DNA from: an uncultured Carboxylicivirga sp.
Lineage (GTDB): Bacteria; Bacteroidota; Bacteroidia; Bacteroidales; Marinilabiliaceae
DNA: 64,000 nt
Direction of reading: 5' to 3'
Assembly (NCBI GenBank): GCA_947503525.1
Contig: CANNEA010000002.1
Span: 496,001-560,000, forward strand
The first letter of the stretch is position 1. Every line of letters starts with the position of its first letter. The position numbers were made by a program, and so were the translations under genes. Positions 29,684-36,808 of the stretch are shown in pieces. Under the pieces are notes generated by a model. The model was not told where the DNA came from, made no database searches, and was given only the letters and a program-made list of their open reading frames with translations.

Positions 29684-30079
29684 ATGAATATCCCAGTACT
29701 TATTGCAGGTGTGTTGGCTGCTATGGCCACAATTGGTCATTTCACTGTTGGCCGAAAGCTTTATTTAAAGCCTTTGATGGATTCTGATATGGATTTGATT
29801 CCGAAGAAAGTTATGCAAACGGTATTTCATTATGTTTCCGTTTATCAGGTATTATCTTCATGGATGTTGATTATGTTAGGGATTCGTGGCGATAACTGCA
29901 TGTTTGATCCTACTTTGGCTCTCTCATTTATAGCTTATAATTATGCTATTTTTGGCATTACACAAATTATTATAGCTCTTCGGTCGAAAGTACCCGGAGC
30001 ATTATTTAAGATGTTCCAGTGGATATTCTGGATAATTATAGCTGCTTTAGTTTTATATGGAGTCTACTCCAAAATGTAA
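29684..30079 (+). CDS. Small four-span membrane protein, unknown
   Basis: 131 residues with four hydrophobic segments: IPVLIAGVLAAMATIGHFTVG, a segment with VYQVLSSWMLIMLGI, LALSFIAYNYAIFGITQIII, and FQWIFWIIIAALVLYGVY. The HFTVGRKLYLKPL loop is basic, suggesting a cytoplasmic face. No family was recognised; it stands alone between convergent genes. Confidence 0.65.
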   Translation: MNIPVLIAGVLAAMATIGHFTVGRKLYLKPLMDSDMDLIPKKVMQTVFHYVSVYQVLSSWMLIMLGIRGDNCMFDPTLALSFIAYNYAIFGITQIIIALRSKVPGALFKMFQWIFWIIIAALVLYGVYSKM

Positions 30080-30148: not shown

Positions 30149-30991
30149 TTATGATTCAAGCTTATTGGATGTAACCCATTCGTTGTAGGCTCCATCATAA
30201 ACTTTTACGTTGCTATAACCTAATTTCGTTGTTAAAATAGCATAAAGTAATCCTGCTCGTGTACTTGTTTGGCAATAAAGAATTACCTCTTTGTCTTTTG
30301 TAACTCCCTTTGATGTAAATAGTTTAATTAATTCATCAGTTGACTTAATTAAGCCTTTATCATCACGCATTAGATCAGAATTGATACTAATTGCACCAGG
30401 AATATGGCCTTTACTTTTTGGATCAGTACCATTAAAATAAGCATCAGCTCTGGCGTCAACTAACACAGCGCCGCTATTGTTAAGCTTGGATTTAACATCT
30501 GCTTGTGAATAATAAGTAGCACGATTTAGTGTGGCATCCACTTTACATTTTTTGGTCATCTTTGGATTTCTGGTTACCGGCTTTCGTGAAGCTTTCCAGG
30601 CATCAAGATTCCCATCCAATAATTTCACGTTTTCAGCGCCCATCATTTTCATAACCCAATACATGCGTCCGGCGTTACTGCCCTTATTGCAATACAGGAT
30701 AATCTCTTTACTTAAGTCGACGCCATGATTACCAAACACTTTGGCTACTTCAGCATCACTTTTTAGTATTCCTTCAATAGGTGTTTTTGACGATAATTCT
30801 TCAACAGGAAGGTTTATTGCATTTCGAATATGTACCTTCTGGTATTCAGTTTTCTTACGTGCATCAATAATGATACAATTCTTATCGTTAATCTTTCCTG
30901 AAAGTTCTTTAACTGAAATAAAATCTCCCTGTGCAAAACTTGCTGATACAAAATAAACCAGCAAAGCAGCTATAATGCTTAATCGTTTCAT
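30149..30991 (-). CDS. Periplasmic double-rhodanese sulfurtransferase
   Basis: 280 residues with a signal peptide (VSASFAQG). There are two rhodanese domains, roughly residues 22-135 and 145-275. Each has an active-site Cys loop: LYCNKGSNAGR in the first and LYCQTSTRAG in the second. Typical rhodaneses have one active Cys, in the second domain; here both domains keep Cys. They move sulfane sulfur between donors such as thiosulfate and thiol acceptors. It follows the porin gene by 18 bases and belongs to the octaheme cytochrome cluster. Confidence 0.9.
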   Translation of the reverse strand: MKRLSIIAALLVYFVSASFAQGDFISVKELSGKINDKNCIIIDARKKTEYQKVHIRNAINLPVEELSSKTPIEGILKSDAEVAKVFGNHGVDLSKEIILYCNKGSNAGRMYWVMKMMGAENVKLLDGNLDAWKASRKPVTRNPKMTKKCKVDATLNRATYYSQADVKSKLNNSGAVLVDARADAYFNGTDPKSKGHIPGAISINSDLMRDDKGLIKSTDELIKLFTSKGVTKDKEVILYCQTSTRAGLLYAILTTKLGYSNVKVYDGAYNEWVTSNKLES

Positions 30992-31009
30992 ATTTTCAGT
31001 TTTAATTTT

Positions 31010-32017
31010 TTAGAATTTAACTTGTAATTGAACATACAAACCGTCGTTTTTCGTTTCGGTAGGCTTTTCTGCTCGGTATAAATAATTGACTTGCAGTCTG
31101 GTCCAGTCATTAAAGAAATAATTGGCGCCAAATGTCATCACGTCTTCTTTATAATCATTGATACCGGCATCGAAAAATTCATACTTAAAAACTGGTTGAA
31201 CCATCCACTTTGTCATATACATGGCTTGAACATATGCTCCACTTCGTTTTTCTCCAAGAGCAAGAAGTTCTCCTCCACAACCACCACCAAGTGAGCGGTC
31301 ATAGTCGCCTTCATCAACGATGTATTCAGCCATCATTCTGAAGTTCCCTTTTGTGATTTCTAATTCAGCCGCATAAGATGTACGGTCTTTATCTTCTGTA
31401 GTAGGGTGTCCATAACGGAATGATCCACCGAAATATAAGAAATCAAGAGGATGGACTACTAAACGGCCAACCCAATCTTTTGCAGTGTTATTATCTTTTC
31501 TAAGACCTGCACCATTCATATAAGCCAAACGGTATTGAACTAAAGTACTTCTATCGCCGCCCAAAACCATTAATCCAATATCGCGTTGGGGAACGATAAG
31601 CTGATCAGCAGCTCTTGAACGAAAGATCGTATGGATACCGCTACAAGGCGTTCCACCCAAATCCATACTGAAAGGAGACTTAAAAGAACCTACTGAAATA
31701 TTAGCCCATTCCCAGCGATTGTAAGAAAGAAAGGCATCCAATAAATAAGCATTTCCATCACCAAGCATTGGACTCATCTCCATCACCACGTAGTAGGAGA
31801 AATCGTAAGGTATATTTCCGGTTGCACCCAGGCGGGCACGACGGAATTCAAAGGAGTTTTCACCTTTGTCAGTAAATTGATAATTATACTCGGACTGTAA
31901 GAATCCAAATATTTTTAATGCTTCATCGTCACTTGCTGCTGATTCGCAACCTTGAGCCAAGCCTTTTAATGGAAGCAATAACATGGCTAAAAGAAATAAT
32001 ATTGAAAAATGCTTCAT
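31010..32017 (-). CDS. O/P-type outer-membrane porin
   Basis: 335 residues with a signal peptide (LKGLAQ). The alternating pattern and the start GFLQSEYNYQF, the central FRRARLGATGNI, SPFSMDLGG and a terminal aromatic (QLQVKF) match the phosphate-selective porin O/P superfamily, which is now known for various anions. Placed between rhodanese genes, it may be the entry route for a sulfur anion (inference). Confidence 0.8.
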   Translation of the reverse strand: MKHFSILFLLAMLLLPLKGLAQGCESAASDDEALKIFGFLQSEYNYQFTDKGENSFEFRRARLGATGNIPYDFSYYVVMEMSPMLGDGNAYLLDAFLSYNRWEWANISVGSFKSPFSMDLGGTPCSGIHTIFRSRAADQLIVPQRDIGLMVLGGDRSTLVQYRLAYMNGAGLRKDNNTAKDWVGRLVVHPLDFLYFGGSFRYGHPTTEDKDRTSYAAELEITKGNFRMMAEYIVDEGDYDRSLGGGCGGELLALGEKRSGAYVQAMYMTKWMVQPVFKYEFFDAGINDYKEDVMTFGANYFFNDWTRLQVNYLYRAEKPTETKNDGLYVQLQVKF

Positions 32018-32044
32018 GATTTGAATTTGCTTAGGTAAATAAAA

Positions 32045-32076
32045 GAAGGTGCTGCTGATTTTGTAGCAACACCTTC
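32045..32076 (-). terminator. Terminator after the rhodanese lipoprotein gene
   Basis: GAAGGTGCTGCT (32045-32056) pairs with AGCAACACCTTC (32065-32076) with one wobble, and on the minus strand it is followed by TTTTATTT. It separates the first rhodanese transcript from the porin-rhodanese pair, so the two may also be expressed separately. Confidence 0.75.
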
Positions 32077-32102
32077 AAGATTGCTATAACTAAGTGTGCA
32101 AC

Positions 32103-33095
32103 TTATTGTACTAATGGAAGATCAAGAGAATTAGAATCGCCACCCCACTGGTTTGTAGTCCATGCTGTGTTAGAATTATATAACTTATTCATACCGAATG
32201 TTAAGCTATAGGCATCGTATCCAATAACACGCAAGTAAGCTGTAATAACAGCTGATGTTTGTCCAGTGTAGCAGTAAGTCACTACTTTTTTAGAAGGATC
32301 AAGATTAGTCATTGTAGCATCACCACTTTCCAATGGCTCAATTAACAATGGTAATAAACGCTGTGAGTTAGCGATATGACCAAATGCGCTGTAATCATCT
32401 CCACTGAAATAATTATTTACAAAGTAGTTCGAAGGGTTGTCTACAACATCCTGTGCACTAGCTGTCTTAAAACCTTGCGATACTACATACTCTACACGCT
32501 CTTTTAAGATATCGGCACCAAGAGTAGCTGTAGAAGGGAAAGCAGGAATATCATAAACCATTCTATCAGGAGCTCCGTCATAAGCCCAATTAGAATGATC
32601 TTTTGCCAGGTCAGCAATATTATCATTCCAGCTAGAAGCTGTTGTTGCACTCCAACCACTCATTCCCCACTTCATGGCCTGTGCATCATGGTAACCATAT
32701 AGTCTTAATAATGAAGTGTAATAACAAGCCGTTTGTCCTGAATAACAAACCACTAAAACTGGTTTGTCTGCTTTGGCCGCTTCTGTTAGTATCTCTGAAC
32801 CGGCAACATTATGTGCATCTTGAATATGACCGGCAGCAAATGCAGATGCCTCACGGATATCAATGACATAATATCCACTAACATCTCCTGAACTGTAACC
32901 ACCATGAACGAATTTCTGTCCTGCGCTATTCTTAATTACATGGTTCAAATCCATATCAATGTCTACCAGGTGATCCATCAATGTTTCAGCAGGATTAACT
33001 TCCGGTGTACCTGATTCACCATCTTCTTTACAACTTGTAAAAACGAATGTGCTAGCTAAAAGCACTACCATTAAATAATTAAATAGATTTTTCAT
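32103..33095 (-). CDS. Double-rhodanese lipoprotein
   Basis: 330 residues. The signal peptide ends in FTSC, giving a lipoprotein. Two rhodanese domains carry Cys loops CYSGQTACY and CYTGQTSAV, each followed by the rhodanese end LxxxGYxxAxxxxxGMxxW/L. The Cys loops are six residues long, the rhodanese size. It lies outside the inner membrane between the porin gene and the single-rhodanese gene, and its start is 123 bases from the stop of that gene. A sulfur-relay role with its neighbours is inferred. Confidence 0.88.
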   Translation of the reverse strand: MKNLFNYLMVVLLASTFVFTSCKEDGESGTPEVNPAETLMDHLVDIDMDLNHVIKNSAGQKFVHGGYSSGDVSGYYVIDIREASAFAAGHIQDAHNVAGSEILTEAAKADKPVLVVCYSGQTACYYTSLLRLYGYHDAQAMKWGMSGWSATTASSWNDNIADLAKDHSNWAYDGAPDRMVYDIPAFPSTATLGADILKERVEYVVSQGFKTASAQDVVDNPSNYFVNNYFSGDDYSAFGHIANSQRLLPLLIEPLESGDATMTNLDPSKKVVTYCYTGQTSAVITAYLRVIGYDAYSLTFGMNKLYNSNTAWTTNQWGGDSNSLDLPLVQ

Positions 33096-33218
33096 GTTAT
33101 TGATTTTAAAAGATTTAAGGTCTCATAAAACGTTTCACTAATCAGCATGGAAATTTGATTAACTAGCTCGTTTCATGAATCTTGATTTAAACTATTTTAA
33201 GTGTTAATTTCATTTTTA

Positions 33219-33728
33219 TTAGCAGCCTCCGCCATCGTCATGCTTAGCAGGCCCACCCGCCAACATTTCTAAATTCTTGTCGCAATAATCCGGATAGCTC
33301 AGTTCCCATTTTTTCCATCCCTCTTCAAGCACTAATACTTTTTTGTATCCCATTTGCTCAAGCGTTTGTCCGGCCAAAATGGAGCGCTTGCCTTTTTTGC
33401 AATACAAAATGATAAGCTCGTCCTGAGTTGGCATGTATAGACCTTCGTTGTCCCAAAATGTTGCATTGTTAATACTAAACTCGATACTTCCTCTTGGTAT
33501 GTTTACAGAACCAGGGATATATCCGTGATAGTGTTCATCTTTTTGACGTACATCAATCACGGTGAATATCTCTTCTGTTTCCATGATATTCATAAGCTCA
33601 TCGGCTTTTGTTGTTTGTACTTCTTCAAAAGCTTTGTTCACCATCTGATCAATCGTTAGATCTGTTGGTTGTGTATTGCAGGCCATAAGTGCAAGCAATA
33701 AAACGGATAGTATGATGTAGTTTCTCAT
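33219..33728 (-). CDS. Single-domain rhodanese lipoprotein with Cys tail
   Basis: 169 residues. The signal peptide ends in LMAC. One rhodanese domain has the active loop LYCKKGKRS in residues ~105-115 and ends LEEGWKKW. The C-terminus is HDDGGGC, an unusual terminal Cys with a Gly linker that could bind metal or form a disulfide. It starts five bases after the cytochrome b gene, so they are cotranscribed. Confidence 0.9.
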   Translation of the reverse strand: MRNYIILSVLLLALMACNTQPTDLTIDQMVNKAFEEVQTTKADELMNIMETEEIFTVIDVRQKDEHYHGYIPGSVNIPRGSIEFSINNATFWDNEGLYMPTQDELIILYCKKGKRSILAGQTLEQMGYKKVLVLEEGWKKWELSYPDYCDKNLEMLAGGPAKHDDGGGC

Positions 33729-33733
33729 GATAA

Positions 33734-34345
33734 TTATTTTGTATGATTTTCGCTTTGTTCAAGATCTTCGTAACCAGTAATCATGGCTTTAAGATTGGCA
33801 CTAATAGTGTGACCGGTTGTAATCAGATAAAGGTGAACGATGACAAATACGACCAATAAGAAAGCACCAAGTGTATGTAATACTGCAACTGTTTCTAATC
33901 CTTGTAATGTGAATGGTTTATCCGGATAGTGGAAAAACAAATAAAGAAATCCTGAGATTAGCTGAACCGGGAAGACTAAAATGATTAATCCGAAGTACAC
34001 AATTCGCTGAAGAGGATTCAATTTTGACTCCGCTGTTTTTGGAACAGGATGAGGTTCATTTTTGAAGATCCCTGACATGTAATACATTATCTGAGATTTC
34101 ACGTTGTTTCGAACTGGTATAAACTGTCTGCTCTGCCCTGTTACCACCATCCAGAATATTGCAAATATGGTCAGTACCAGAAAGCCCCATCCAGCTGCAG
34201 AATGCAGACGAACCGATGATTCAAAGCCAAATAATTCAAATGAACCATGGATTTCGAATCCCGTTAATCCTAATAAAAGAATTAACATCATTTGTGTCCA
34301 GTGCCAGAAACGTTCAAAACGGCTATATATCTTTACTTTATTCAT
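33734..34345 (-). CDS. Membrane cytochrome b (thiosulfate reductase/formate dehydrogenase gamma-like)
   Basis: 203 residues with four main hydrophobic spans. Candidate heme-b His residues lie in RFWHW (span 1), RLHSAAGWG (span 2), LHTLGAF and VHLYLITTGH (late spans). This is the cytochrome b561/Ni-Fe hydrogenase b-type family. It would take electrons from menaquinol and pass them to the octaheme cytochrome encoded two bases upstream in the operon. Confidence 0.88.
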   Translation of the reverse strand: MNKVKIYSRFERFWHWTQMMLILLLGLTGFEIHGSFELFGFESSVRLHSAAGWGFLVLTIFAIFWMVVTGQSRQFIPVRNNVKSQIMYYMSGIFKNEPHPVPKTAESKLNPLQRIVYFGLIILVFPVQLISGFLYLFFHYPDKPFTLQGLETVAVLHTLGAFLLVVFVIVHLYLITTGHTISANLKAMITGYEDLEQSENHTK

Positions 34346-34347
34346 AT

Positions 34348-35940
34348 TTATTTGTTTTTAAAGAAGGCAACAATACGGCCAATCATATGAGCAAATATTC
34401 CGACTATAGTGAGGACGATTAAACTCATACCAGCATAATCAACAGTTTTAGAATAATCGCGACCCGGTAAATAGAAATCTTTTAAGTTATCAAGGCGTCC
34501 TTCTCGTGAATGACACTCTGTACATGTCAGAGTTTCTTCTTTTGGCGAAACCATATGGTTGATTGGCCAGTAGGCTTCAGACTCAACAAAATCGTAGTTA
34601 CCACTATATGGGCGGTCGTTATATTTCATACCTAATCGAGAAGCTGTGTCCCAGTCAAAATCTTTCCAGAATGCACCTTCACCTTTTTCAGCTGCCCAAA
34701 GTTTAAGGTTAATTAATGTGTTGTGATCAACATCATAAATCTGTTTTCCTCTATGCACTTTAACAGGCCATATTTTAGCTGTCGAATCCTGATATGAACC
34801 GAATAACTCATTGATCTTAACCGGAATTTCAGAAATAGTATCACTGGTTAAGAAATGATCAGCAGTACCATTAAACCAGTAGTATTCAGGTTTAACATCA
34901 TTATCCCAAACGAAATTCCCTTTTATTGAAAGGTAATTGTGATTACCATCCGCATCATCTTCCGAATAGCCATTCCCTTCATCATCCAACATTCCGGCTG
35001 AAGACCAATCCCAATACAACTTAGTGGCATTAGCTTTGGCATAAATTGGAATATGACAGGTTTGACAGGCCAGTTTCTCAAAGTGCTGATCCAATACAGC
35101 ATCATTATGAGGAGTAGCAGTATGACACTGGTCACAATCAATCCGGTTTTCATTCATAGAAGAAACCGAGTATAATTTACCTTTTATATTATGACGTTCG
35201 GTGGTATGACAATCGATACAAGCCATATCAGCTCCTTCGTTGGTCATGTGAACATCAACATGTTTTGAGCAGGATAGCAAAGCTTCCTCCAGGTCACCAT
35301 GTTTTACATTGTTACCACCTCCACCATAAAAATGACAGATACCACAGTTATTCTTTTTAGGTAAACCAACATTCTGCGCTACATATGGATAGTCAGGTAC
35401 TTGATAGGCGGCGTTTGCGGTTTCAGCTGTTGCCGGCATTCCTCCTTGTCCCTTTTGTTTAAAGTAGCTATCGGTTTGATCATGGCAAACTAAACAATCG
35501 ATATTGCGATTATCGGCAAAATCAAAGCTTTTATCTTTCCAACCTAAACCAATATGGCAACGCATACATGAGCCATTATTACCATTGGCACCCGTACAGA
35601 AGTTGTTAAGTAAGTTTTTCTTCCCAATGCTTACTTTACCCTTGCCCGGTATTTCCACATCACGTTCCCACTTCCAGTGTGCCGTAGCCATAACTTCTTC
35701 ATCGCGTCCGGTATGACATGATAAACACGCGGCAGTTACATCGTGTGGTGTAGCAAAATCTTGCTGTAGAATTTCGAATTGAGAATGATCAACAGAAGAG
35801 ACGTGTTCTGATTTTAGTTTGACTTTTATCTGATCAGGCTCTCCTTTATAACTTGCAACCTTAACCGTAAGGTACAGTGCTCCAATTGGAAGGAGGAGGC
35901 TGACCAACATGGTTGTTGCTGAATTAGAGAATTTTTTCAT
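34348..35940 (-). CDS. Octaheme cytochrome c, tetrathionate-reductase (OTR) family
   Basis: 530 residues from the ATG at 35940, which gives a clean signal/anchor start (MKKFSNSATTMLVSLLL); a longer frame to 36057 overlaps the divergent regulator and lacks a signal. It has exactly eight CxxCH heme motifs: CLSCH, CMRCH, CLVCH, CGICH, CIDCH, CDQCH, CQTCH and CTECH. A C-terminal hydrophobic helix (SLIVLTIVGIFAHMIG) anchors it. Shewanella OTR reduces tetrathionate, nitrite and hydroxylamine in vitro, and its true substrate is unsettled. Here it is encoded with a quinol-type cytochrome b and exported rhodaneses, which favours a sulfur substrate. Confidence 0.9.
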   Translation of the reverse strand: MKKFSNSATTMLVSLLLPIGALYLTVKVASYKGEPDQIKVKLKSEHVSSVDHSQFEILQQDFATPHDVTAACLSCHTGRDEEVMATAHWKWERDVEIPGKGKVSIGKKNLLNNFCTGANGNNGSCMRCHIGLGWKDKSFDFADNRNIDCLVCHDQTDSYFKQKGQGGMPATAETANAAYQVPDYPYVAQNVGLPKKNNCGICHFYGGGGNNVKHGDLEEALLSCSKHVDVHMTNEGADMACIDCHTTERHNIKGKLYSVSSMNENRIDCDQCHTATPHNDAVLDQHFEKLACQTCHIPIYAKANATKLYWDWSSAGMLDDEGNGYSEDDADGNHNYLSIKGNFVWDNDVKPEYYWFNGTADHFLTSDTISEIPVKINELFGSYQDSTAKIWPVKVHRGKQIYDVDHNTLINLKLWAAEKGEGAFWKDFDWDTASRLGMKYNDRPYSGNYDFVESEAYWPINHMVSPKEETLTCTECHSREGRLDNLKDFYLPGRDYSKTVDYAGMSLIVLTIVGIFAHMIGRIVAFFKNK

Positions 35941-35959
35941 GATACTTTTGGATTTGGTA

Positions 35960-35967
35960 CAAATGTA
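35960..35967 (-). promoter_or_regulatory. Candidate -7 element of the octaheme operon
   Basis: TACATTTG on the minus strand fits TAnnTTTG, about 20 bases before the chosen start at 35940. No good -33 TTG is seen at the right spacing, which suits a promoter that depends on an activator. Confidence 0.4.
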
Positions 35968-36078
35968 TATTTGAAGATTTTTTTCTCTAAATAATTGAGC
36001 GGGCAACAAAACGGAAAAAAATCTGTAATAGAACGTTTCTAAATTGACGGCCATCACAACTTTTCTTGATTTATTTCG

Positions 36079-36086
36079 TATTTTTG
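36079..36086 (+). promoter_or_regulatory. Candidate -7 element of the Crp/FNR-like regulator
   Basis: TATTTTTG fits TAnnTTTG and lies 26 bases before the ATG at 36113. This supports that start over the ATG-less upstream extension at 36044. No -33 element was found. Confidence 0.4.
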
Positions 36087-36112
36087 ATGTAACAAGCTTA
36101 AAATGTTATAGT

Positions 36113-36808
36113 ATGCCAAAGCCAGTAGTGTTTAACGGTTGCTCCGTTGGGGAAAATCCATTGTGTTGTTTTGATGAGTTGACAGAGGAAGAGATTGCGT
36201 TTATTGATGAAAACAGTGTTGAGGTAGAGTATAAACGTGGAGAAACAATTTGTAAGCAAGGATCATTTGCTTCGCATATAATGGTATTAAAAGAAGGACT
36301 TGCAAAAATCTATTTGGAGAACACAAATGATTCTTTGGTTCTGAAAATACTTCCTGCGGTTAATATTATAGGTTTACCTGCTTTATTCGATGGCAATGCA
36401 GTATTTCCGTATAGTGCACAAACTTATATGGATTCAGCCGTAAAGTTGATTGACATTAATGCATTTAAGAGCTTGATTGAGACCAATGCAAAATTTGCAT
36501 GCAAGATCATTAGTATGTTGGCTGAAAATTCAGTTATTATTAATGGTCGTTTTTTCTGTTTAACTAAGAAGCAGACTTACGGCCGTTTGGCAGATGTTTT
36601 ACTTTGTCTGGCACAACGGATTTACAAAACGGATAAGTTTCCGCTACAATTATCCAGAAAAGATTTAGCTGAGATAGCGAGTATGTCAGTAGAAAGTACA
36701 ACACGCATATTGACCAAATTTAAAGAAGATGGTTTGATTGCTGTTAAAACCGATTCCATTGAAATCTTGGATTTGGATAGATTAACAGATATTAGTCAGA
36801 TAGGATAA
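36113..36808 (+). CDS. Crp/FNR-family transcription regulator
   Basis: 231 residues from the ATG at 36113. It has an N-terminal cyclic-nucleotide-binding-type beta-roll (EVEYKRGETICKQGSFASHIMVLKEGLAKIY begins the family pattern) and a C-terminal winged HTH (LSRKDLAEIASMSVESTTRIL). The N-terminus holds Cys10, Cys18 and Cys19, with another Cys in ETICKQG; these could ligate an iron-sulfur cluster as in FNR, although the spacing differs. It is divergent from the octaheme cytochrome operon across ~170 bases, so it probably controls that operon in response to redox state or a sulfur compound (inference). Confidence 0.9.
   Translation: MPKPVVFNGCSVGENPLCCFDELTEEEIAFIDENSVEVEYKRGETICKQGSFASHIMVLKEGLAKIYLENTNDSLVLKILPAVNIIGLPALFDGNAVFPYSAQTYMDSAVKLIDINAFKSLIETNAKFACKIISMLAENSVIINGRFFCLTKKQTYGRLADVLLCLAQRIYKTDKFPLQLSRKDLAEIASMSVESTTRILTKFKEDGLIAVKTDSIEILDLDRLTDISQIG

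Follow-up and report, generated by a model that had tools for sequence, protein, structure and literature searches.

The 64,000-nucleotide stretch analysed here (the window) corresponds to positions 496001-560000 of contig C2 in the genome of an uncultured Carboxylicivirga sp. (6.56 Mb, 39 contigs, completeness 100). It contains a minus-strand locus that runs from 35940 to 30149 in the order octaheme cytochrome c of the OTR family, cytochrome b561, rhodanese RhA, rhodanese RhB, O/P-type porin and rhodanese RhC. Rhodanese genes were found to be conserved beside OTR genes, mostly to encode C-terminal Gly-Gly-Cys tails, and to have lost the catalytic loop cysteine where they are fused to half of a YeeE/YedE channel. 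We put the chances at about even that the locus encodes a membrane-bound respiratory chain acting on protein-carried sulfur. The tails and their context suggest that OTR acts on sulfur held by a protein arm and not on free sulfur anions. With somewhat less than even confidence, we propose that these rhodaneses, active or Cys-less, form a new class of periplasmic carrier with a SoxY-like arm, feeding either a YeeE channel or a quinol-linked octaheme cytochrome that would reduce protein-bound sulfur and not free tetrathionate.

The physiological substrate of the OTR family is unsettled; its name comes from in-vitro tetrathionate reduction, and nitrite and hydroxylamine are also reduced. A conserved carrier arm beside OTR makes this question testable at one named cysteine. 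If the proposal is correct, the arm would be a reductive counterpart of that of SoxY, and the combination of a Gly-Gly-Cys rhodanese, OTR and cytochrome b could serve as an annotation marker for sulfur respiration in Bacteroidota and relatives. A sequence-only reading of this DNA had described an eight-heme OTR, a cytochrome b, three exported rhodaneses with five Cys-bearing domains, a porin and a divergent regulator, and all of these were confirmed. The tails, the loop-Cys loss in YeeE-linked rhodaneses, the link to YeeE and a second OTR locus in the same genome are additions beyond that reading.

Rhodanese genes beside OTR genes

The TIGR04315 model was searched in 395 genomes of the phylum (55 over cut-off) and 295 genomes of the order (63 over cut-off). 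By hand count, these gave 129 distinct over-cut-off OTR places with the window included, and 101 were surveyed, namely the window and 100 of the other 128. The 28 places outside the survey were set aside for short contigs or alikeness and were not chosen by their neighbours. Loci were taken with about 9 kb per side where the contig allowed, and since the full 8 kb on both sides was available in only 69/101 loci, absences are over-counted. Gene calls were the longest open reading frames (ORFs), and families were hidden Markov models that started from the window and L068, which is the other OTR locus of its genome, and were iterated on the surveyed set, so that a distant rhodanese can be missed. 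In L114/L226, a fusion ending GGC was not labelled as a rhodanese. A scan of named records added the best 80 OTR loci; L233 received no OTR label in the neighbour labelling and was read separately.

A rhodanese was present within 8 kb of OTR in 72 of the 101 surveyed loci, usually along with a TsuA-like YeeE/YedE channel; cytochrome b adjoined OTR in 86, and YeeE was within 8 kb in 62. The porin was found in 4/101 loci and an opposite-strand Crp gene within 8 kb in 15/101. The rhodanese density in 24 hand-picked OTR-bearing relatives was 192 domains per 93.4 Mb (a hand sum over rounded genome sizes, OTR-linked domains included), which gives about 0.04 expected per 20 kb, and chance co-location was rejected on this comparison. 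The sequence-only reading had staked its genomic side on rhodanese genes being conserved next to OTR genes in relatives, and the neighbourhood search that it proposed showed that they are.

The complete run of OTR, cytochrome b, RhA, RhB, porin and RhC was found in the window and ten other loci (L168, L169, L170, L171, L173, L175, L178, L180, L129 and L132), with a 90-amino-acid (aa) ORF after RhA in L129. The Crp gene lies within the run in L247, parts are rearranged in L176 and L138, and L140, L174, L212 and L241 have OTR, cytochrome b and RhA without the remaining genes. L172, L177 and L179 reach contig ends, as does L230 directly after OTR, and in L167 cytochrome b is followed by no rhodanese. 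In a quick-search tree (no bootstrap) of 158 OTRs and two outgroup rows, from which L168 is absent as a near-copy of the window OTR, the 13 porin-type representatives fall in one clade of 22 (Shimodaira-Hasegawa approximate likelihood ratio test, SH-aLRT, 94), and the next larger group includes 87/88 YeeE-type loci. The nearest named OTRs among the best 80 loci belong to Marinilabiliaceae bacterium N1Y90 (91% identity) and Saccharicrinis sp. UBA6048 (77%). OTR has also been reported in 73 Zodletone sediment genomes (PMC9040765).

Gly-Gly-Cys tails and the loop cysteine

Tails were scored as G[GA]C followed by at most four residues, with GGLC added for the counts over 159 loci, which accounts for small differences between the counts. 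Rhodaneses were classed as YeeE fusions, other proteins shorter than 245 aa, and proteins of at least 245 aa; the two length classes are proxies for one and two rhodanese domains, and a longer protein was scored as keeping the loop Cys if any of its domains did. After near-copy removal, which reduced 180 loci to 159 with OTRs less than 90% alike, the tail was present in 88/90 fusions, 54/61 shorter and 33/63 longer rhodaneses (GGLC included). The corresponding values were 94/100, 56/59 and 35/68 before near-copy removal, and 83/89, 53/60 and 33/60 in a further count without GGLC. The loop Cys was kept in none of the 90 fusions, 23 of the 61 shorter and all 63 longer rhodaneses in the 159 loci, and 35 of the 38 shorter rhodaneses that lack it carry the tail. 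At least one rhodanese with a Gly-Gly/Ala-Cys tail was encoded in 66/67 surveyed loci having both cytochrome b and rhodanese within 8 kb.

As background, these loci had 2,084 other genes encoding at least 100 aa, and 1 of them ended in such a tail. Away from OTR, 12/85 rhodanese ORFs were tailed, and 9 of these 12 had YeeE on the stretch read. The 85 controls are listed matches in the window's own genome and 24 relatives, not a random sample, and some few are fragments of a single protein (L007/L008); ten further rhodanese ORFs in the control loci were OTR-linked and were set apart. The RhA alignment (21 sequences, window included) was picked for a Gly-Cys end, and the fusion alignment (32 sequences) was hand-picked after the tails had been seen, without L160 and L224, which have no tail, and without the GGLC group. 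The invariance of the tail in the two alignments therefore arises by selection and was not used as evidence.

RhA (33219..33728, minus strand; PF00581, 72.5 bits) is predicted to be a one-domain lipoprotein, with a lipobox LMAC and a loop CKKGKR that includes Cys110. It ends in GGGC (codons 33222..33233, minus strand), and the sequence and the tail statistics point to Cys169 as the proposed carrier residue. Residues 155-169 of its AlphaFold2 model have a predicted local distance difference test score (pLDDT) below 50, which is suggestive of a flexible tail and not proof of one, and the model matches rhodanese structures (best E 6.4e-9). The fusion encoded in L068 gave a similar picture: tail residues 409-420 were modelled at pLDDT <50, and its Cys-less domain still matches rhodanese structures (best E 1.7e-4).

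In the Sox system, SoxY bears a C-terminal GGCGG carrier arm. RhA shares with it a C-terminal Gly-Gly-Cys on a putatively flexible arm, but differs in its rhodanese fold, its membrane tether and its assumed reductive partner. Rhodaneses that end in GGCGG itself are encoded in genome G455 (L257 and L324:3116-3604), the latter being an RhA-like protein. No SoxY match was found for RhA, for which Pfam gave PF00581 alone at E 0.01, and SoxY was absent by name among the 50 best listed fold matches, most of which are named rhodanese or sulfurtransferase. No description of Gly-Gly-Cys-tailed rhodaneses was found among the papers listed from an open-licence library, outside which many subscription papers lie, and the same holds for OTR, YeeE and rhodanese as one operon.

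The tail could instead be a structural or anchoring end, forming a disulfide to a partner or a covalent attachment, and not a sulfur carrier. We consider this unlikely. It is true that the carrier role is proposed from sequence evidence, and that RhA already has both a lipid anchor and an intact loop Cys. However, the tail stays in the fusions, where the loop Cys has been lost; the models have low confidence at the tails; and tails track the sulfur context of YeeE and OTR, being infrequent among the other rhodanese ORFs.

The five rhodanese domains (PF00581) of the three exported window proteins all have the loop Cys, and the tail is confined to RhA, with RhB and RhC carrying the loop Cys only. 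RhB (32103..33095, minus strand) has PF00581 in two stretches, with loops CYSGQT and CYTGQT, and a predicted lipoprotein signal. Its mature N-terminus, C-K-E-D-G, resembles a surface-export signal, and C-K with at least one Asp/Glu at +3/+4 was present in 15/15 RhB-type proteins listed. Such starts resemble the polar-then-acidic export signals of Bacteroidota surface lipoproteins, although the Lys stands one place early compared with the Capnocytophaga optimum C-X-K-(D/E)2 (PMC5080379). RhC (30149..30991, minus strand; PF00581 in two stretches) has loops CNKGSN and CQTSTR and a Sec-type signal that predicts a periplasmic protein, and it scored 120 bits against a 3-mercaptopyruvate sulfurtransferase model, below the cut-off of 250. 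A plus-strand ORF of 131 aa (29684-30079), with no Pfam or NCBIfam match, faces RhC, and ORFs of 114-147 aa likewise face RhC in L168, L170 and L171. Five tandem rhodaneses of 346-375 aa with lipoprotein-like starts were observed in L298 (G224:C15:252500-260000).

YeeE-linked loci and the Geobacter ext cluster

The second OTR locus in the window's genome (L068, contig C3) consists of OTR, cytochrome b and two YeeE halves, one of which continues into a rhodanese. The two halves matched Sulf_transp at 79.9 and 55.4 bits, and the fused rhodanese has the loop YGNSDEQT, without a loop Cys. This arrangement was the commonest in the survey and also occurred in records named Planctomycetales, Chthonomonadia and LCP-89 among the best 80 loci, and in Acidobacteria, read separately. 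A window scan for Sulf_transp gave no match, and the window locus itself is without YeeE. A YeeE-YeeE-rhodanese group was observed elsewhere in the same genome (C2 near 1,010,000; L006), with no OTR on the stretch read and a rhodanese ending KKKRVAGGC.

In the fusions, an additional hydrophobic helix separates YeeE from the rhodanese. In the 32 picked fusions, the loop before this helix has means of 5.4 Lys+Arg and 2.2 Asp+Glu in 22 residues, and the stretch after it has means of 3.0 and 2.8, respectively, in 16 residues. This charge pattern, together with the N-terminal anchor of unfused versions, favours a periplasmic location of the fused rhodanese.

RhB, porin and RhC are grouped without OTR in L325 and L326. 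In L324, an 8.5 kb contig of G455, genes for a Sulf_transp protein (183.6 bits), an RhA-like rhodanese, RhB, porin and RhC face a Crp gene. This contig has no OTR, and the sole over-cut-off OTR of G455 is on another contig. The RhA-like rhodanese is 31% identical to RhA, has the loop Cys and ends EGGCGG, and the porin is 49% identical to that of the window. Thus, the same rhodanese-porin group pairs either with OTR and cytochrome b or with a YeeE-family channel, and the fact that a YeeE-family gene can take the place of the OTR-cytochrome b pair favours sulfur. The sulfur function assigned to the locus in the sequence-only reading gained support in part, from the rhodaneses beside OTR, the run in ten other loci, the YeeE/YedE genes in other OTR loci and the L324 group after YeeE; a sulfur anion as substrate, its entry by the porin and electron flow towards OTR are still put forward conditionally.

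YeeE occurs with sulfur-transferase genes in known systems, the YeeE/YedE-TsuA channel and the YTD cluster (PMC13047784, PMC12142623, PMC8528874), and in Desulfurivibrio a porin adjoins periplasmic sulfurtransferases and YeeE (PMC12142623). SoxT is also YeeE-like (PMC11582611). Unlike these systems, the OTR loci split YeeE into two halves, with a Cys-less tailed rhodanese joined to the second, and add OTR and cytochrome b. The YTD set (yedE, tusA, dsrE-like and conserved hypothetical genes) was not found in the window, which gave no Sulf_transp match and no tusA or dsrE among the Pfam matches of the nine proteins scanned.

Reduction of selenite or tellurite, as in the Geobacter ext cluster (rhodanese lipoprotein ExtH, porin ExtI, cytochrome b ExtP and cytochrome ExtKL), appears very unlikely to us as the function of the locus. 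The extHIJKLMNOPQS cluster shares with the window a rhodanese lipoprotein, an O/P-like porin, a multiheme cytochrome and a cytochrome b (PMC5877670, PMC6148476), and an extI mutant is reported to be defective in selenite and tellurite reduction (PMC5877670). The window porin (31010..32017, minus strand; PF07396, 53 bits), an outer-membrane protein of the O/P superfamily by profile match, is distantly ExtI-like, with 47.9 bits against porin_ExtI, and RhC matches ExtH at 45.3 bits. The L324 channel scored higher against the selenium-linked YedE/FdhT model (131 bits) than against TsuA (95 bits), both under cut-off, which keeps selenium open, and an OTR-family selenoprotein has been listed (PMC13188914). 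All these window and L324 matches are, however, far under the curated cut-offs, and membership of the ext cluster was rejected on the scores for ExtH (45.3 of 200 bits) and ExtI (47.9 of 150 bits) and on the assignment of the cytochrome to TIGR04315. ExtKL has been reported to be a pentaheme with a family of its own, distinct from OTR (PMC6148476, PMC13188914), and to contain selenocysteine (Sec), and the ext cluster further includes a Rieske protein and additional cytochromes (PMC5877670, PMC6148476). None of the eight window proteins compared with NCBIfam matched the ExtKL model (NF040886). The L068 YeeE half scored higher against TsuA (48.8 bits) than against YedE/FdhT (34.2 bits), and systems that act on sulfur can reduce selenite as a side reaction.

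The octaheme cytochrome and the proposed chain

OTR (34348..35940, minus strand) matched TIGR04315 at 575.3 bits (cut-off 375) over profile positions 1-440 of 440 and has eight CxxCH motifs, as do all 101 surveyed OTRs. Its residues 95-523 align with the solved octaheme 1sp3 of Shewanella oneidensis (phmmer E 8.1e-123), and hydrophobic stretches are present at its N-terminus and C-terminus. Residues were numbered from the mechanical start, GTG at 36057 (ORF 34348-36057). This ORF overlaps that of the divergent regulator, mechanically opened at 36044, and both mechanical starts were rejected. The likely starts are ATG 35940 for OTR and ATG 36113 for the regulator; the 172 bases between the two diverging genes (35941..36112) are a presumed promoter region.

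Cys154 (35596..35598, minus strand), just ahead of the second heme motif CMRCH, and Lys252 (35302..35304, minus strand) are Cys and Lys, respectively, in 158/158 aligned OTRs. Cys154 aligns with a Cys of 1sp3 and Lys252 with the Lys of its VKHGD segment, the residue that ligates the active heme of Shewanella OTR on its distal side; both residues presumably belong to the heme-2 pocket. Heme II has been named the catalytic heme of Shewanella OTR (PMC4484225). The Cys154 codon is an ordinary TGT, and the window OTR was rejected as a selenoprotein. One selenoprotein of this family (TIGR04315; WP_331457571.1) is listed without the position of its Sec (PMC13188914), and it would be telling if that position were the one of Cys154. 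Broken OTR reading frames were observed in G015:C42 (several stops) and L218 (two ORFs), which may reflect decay or assembly error.

The Shewanella and window enzymes share the eight CxxCH motifs, the alignment of the catalytic part, and the Lys and Cys near heme 2. The window enzyme differs in ending with a hydrophobic helix and in having a cytochrome b gene as its partner. Shewanella OTR is described as periplasmic and as interacting with the small tetraheme cytochrome STC (PMC4484225). An Otr-cytochrome b561 pair reported in Ignavibacteriae Ch128a comprises the same two core genes, and no rhodanese, YeeE or tail is named in the accessible part of that report (PMC7509429).

The window cytochrome b (33734..34345, minus strand; PF01292, 104 bits) is a candidate quinol dehydrogenase, and its His15, 48 and 99 are kept in 144/144 sequences and His157 and 171 in 143/143. 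OTRs of at least 480 aa had a cytochrome b partner in 86/90 surveyed loci and shorter OTRs in 0/11, and a G-x(2,3)-H-x3-R motif in the last 75 residues was present in 129/145 long and 1/13 short OTR representatives. A cytochrome b adjoining OTR can bear C-terminal PAS domains (PAS fold, two stretches, L122:10704-12044), an odd case of a sensor domain fused to a quinol dehydrogenase; 36 of the 144 cytochrome b representatives exceed 300 aa, with L122 as the sole one scanned. In L116, L117, L148 and L158, OTR without cytochrome b is followed by YeeE, a YeeE-rhodanese fusion (tails GGLCS/GGLCG) and a multiheme cytochrome (8 or 9 CxxCH, about 590-630 aa), perhaps another electron partner.

In the chain that we propose, cytochrome b would oxidise menaquinol and pass electrons to the periplasmic octaheme OTR, which would be held at the membrane through its C-terminal helix. 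RhB, probably at the cell surface, and the porin would import sulfane sulfur or polythionate/thiosulfate, and RhC would load the sulfur as a persulfide. RhA, anchored in the membrane, may then offer it on the flexible Gly-Gly-Gly-Cys arm to the pocket of the catalytic heme (heme 2) of OTR, which holds the invariant Cys and Lys, and reduction would free sulfide (or thiosulfate/sulfite). Other OTR loci would have this arm on a rhodanese domain that lacks a catalytic Cys and is fused to a YeeE/YedE channel half. The reductive direction is favoured by the published expression of OTR-type enzymes. In Acidobacteriota microcosms, the otr transcript was 36-fold up with tetrathionate on day 8 (p 0.0488) (PMC8528874), and in Dethiobacter alkaliphilus an octaheme whose gene lies with rhodanese genes was upregulated on thiosulfate (PMC10376724). 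The thiosulfate-linked clusters 5-T/4 of the latter combine an octaheme (SirA/Otr homologue) with rhodanese genes as in the window; this octaheme is reported to be 20-23% identical to Otr/SirA, and no cytochrome b, porin or tail is mentioned in the part of the report that is accessible (PMC10376724).

Several observations weigh against the proposed chain. No labelled rhodanese was present within 8 kb in 19/86 surveyed loci with OTR and cytochrome b, nor in the Photobacterium and Paracoccus OTR loci, so OTR needs no rhodanese in general. Tails also occur with YeeE and without OTR; the arm is therefore not specific to OTR and could serve the channel only. The tail is missing in 30/63 OTR-near rhodaneses of at least 245 aa, RhB and RhC are tail-less, and RhA retains its loop Cys. 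The topology is drawn from signal motifs and charge counts only, and Shewanella OTR also reduces nitrite and hydroxylamine (PMC4484225).

Electron flow could also be oxidative, with OTR as a heme-based counterpart of SoxCD that takes electrons from arm-bound sulfane sulfur or sulfide and passes them through cytochrome b to quinone. We hold this to have a small probability. The arm does resemble that of SoxY, a sulfur carrier for oxidation. OTR-cytochrome b also occurs on a Paracoccus replicon, and family f19 (genomes of 1.6-2.6 Mb, for which green sulfur bacteria are a guess only) has the pair without rhodanese. Counting against oxidation, the named OTR-bearing lineages of the best-80 scan are largely anaerobes with menaquinone, and what has been published on the expression of OTR-type enzymes indicates reduction (PMC8528874, PMC10376724).

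The reduction of nitrite and hydroxylamine by Shewanella OTR raises the further alternative that OTR is an ammonification enzyme for these compounds, with the rhodaneses as sulfide or cyanide protection genes carried along. This we regard as very unlikely. It would leave the conservation of rhodanese and YeeE with OTR, and the tails, unexplained, and there was no nitrogen-cycle enzyme in the Pfam matches of the nine window proteins scanned, no wider search having been made.

The gene that diverges from the operon at 36113 (36113..36808, plus strand) encodes a Crp/Fnr-family regulator of 231 aa with a Crp helix-turn-helix and a cyclic-nucleotide-binding domain (PF13545, PF00027, PF00325). An FNR-type iron-sulfur regulator was rejected, as the window's clade shares no four-Cys set and a single N-terminal Cys is shared, judged by eye. 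A divergent Crp gene adjoins OTR in 17/23 loci of this clade.

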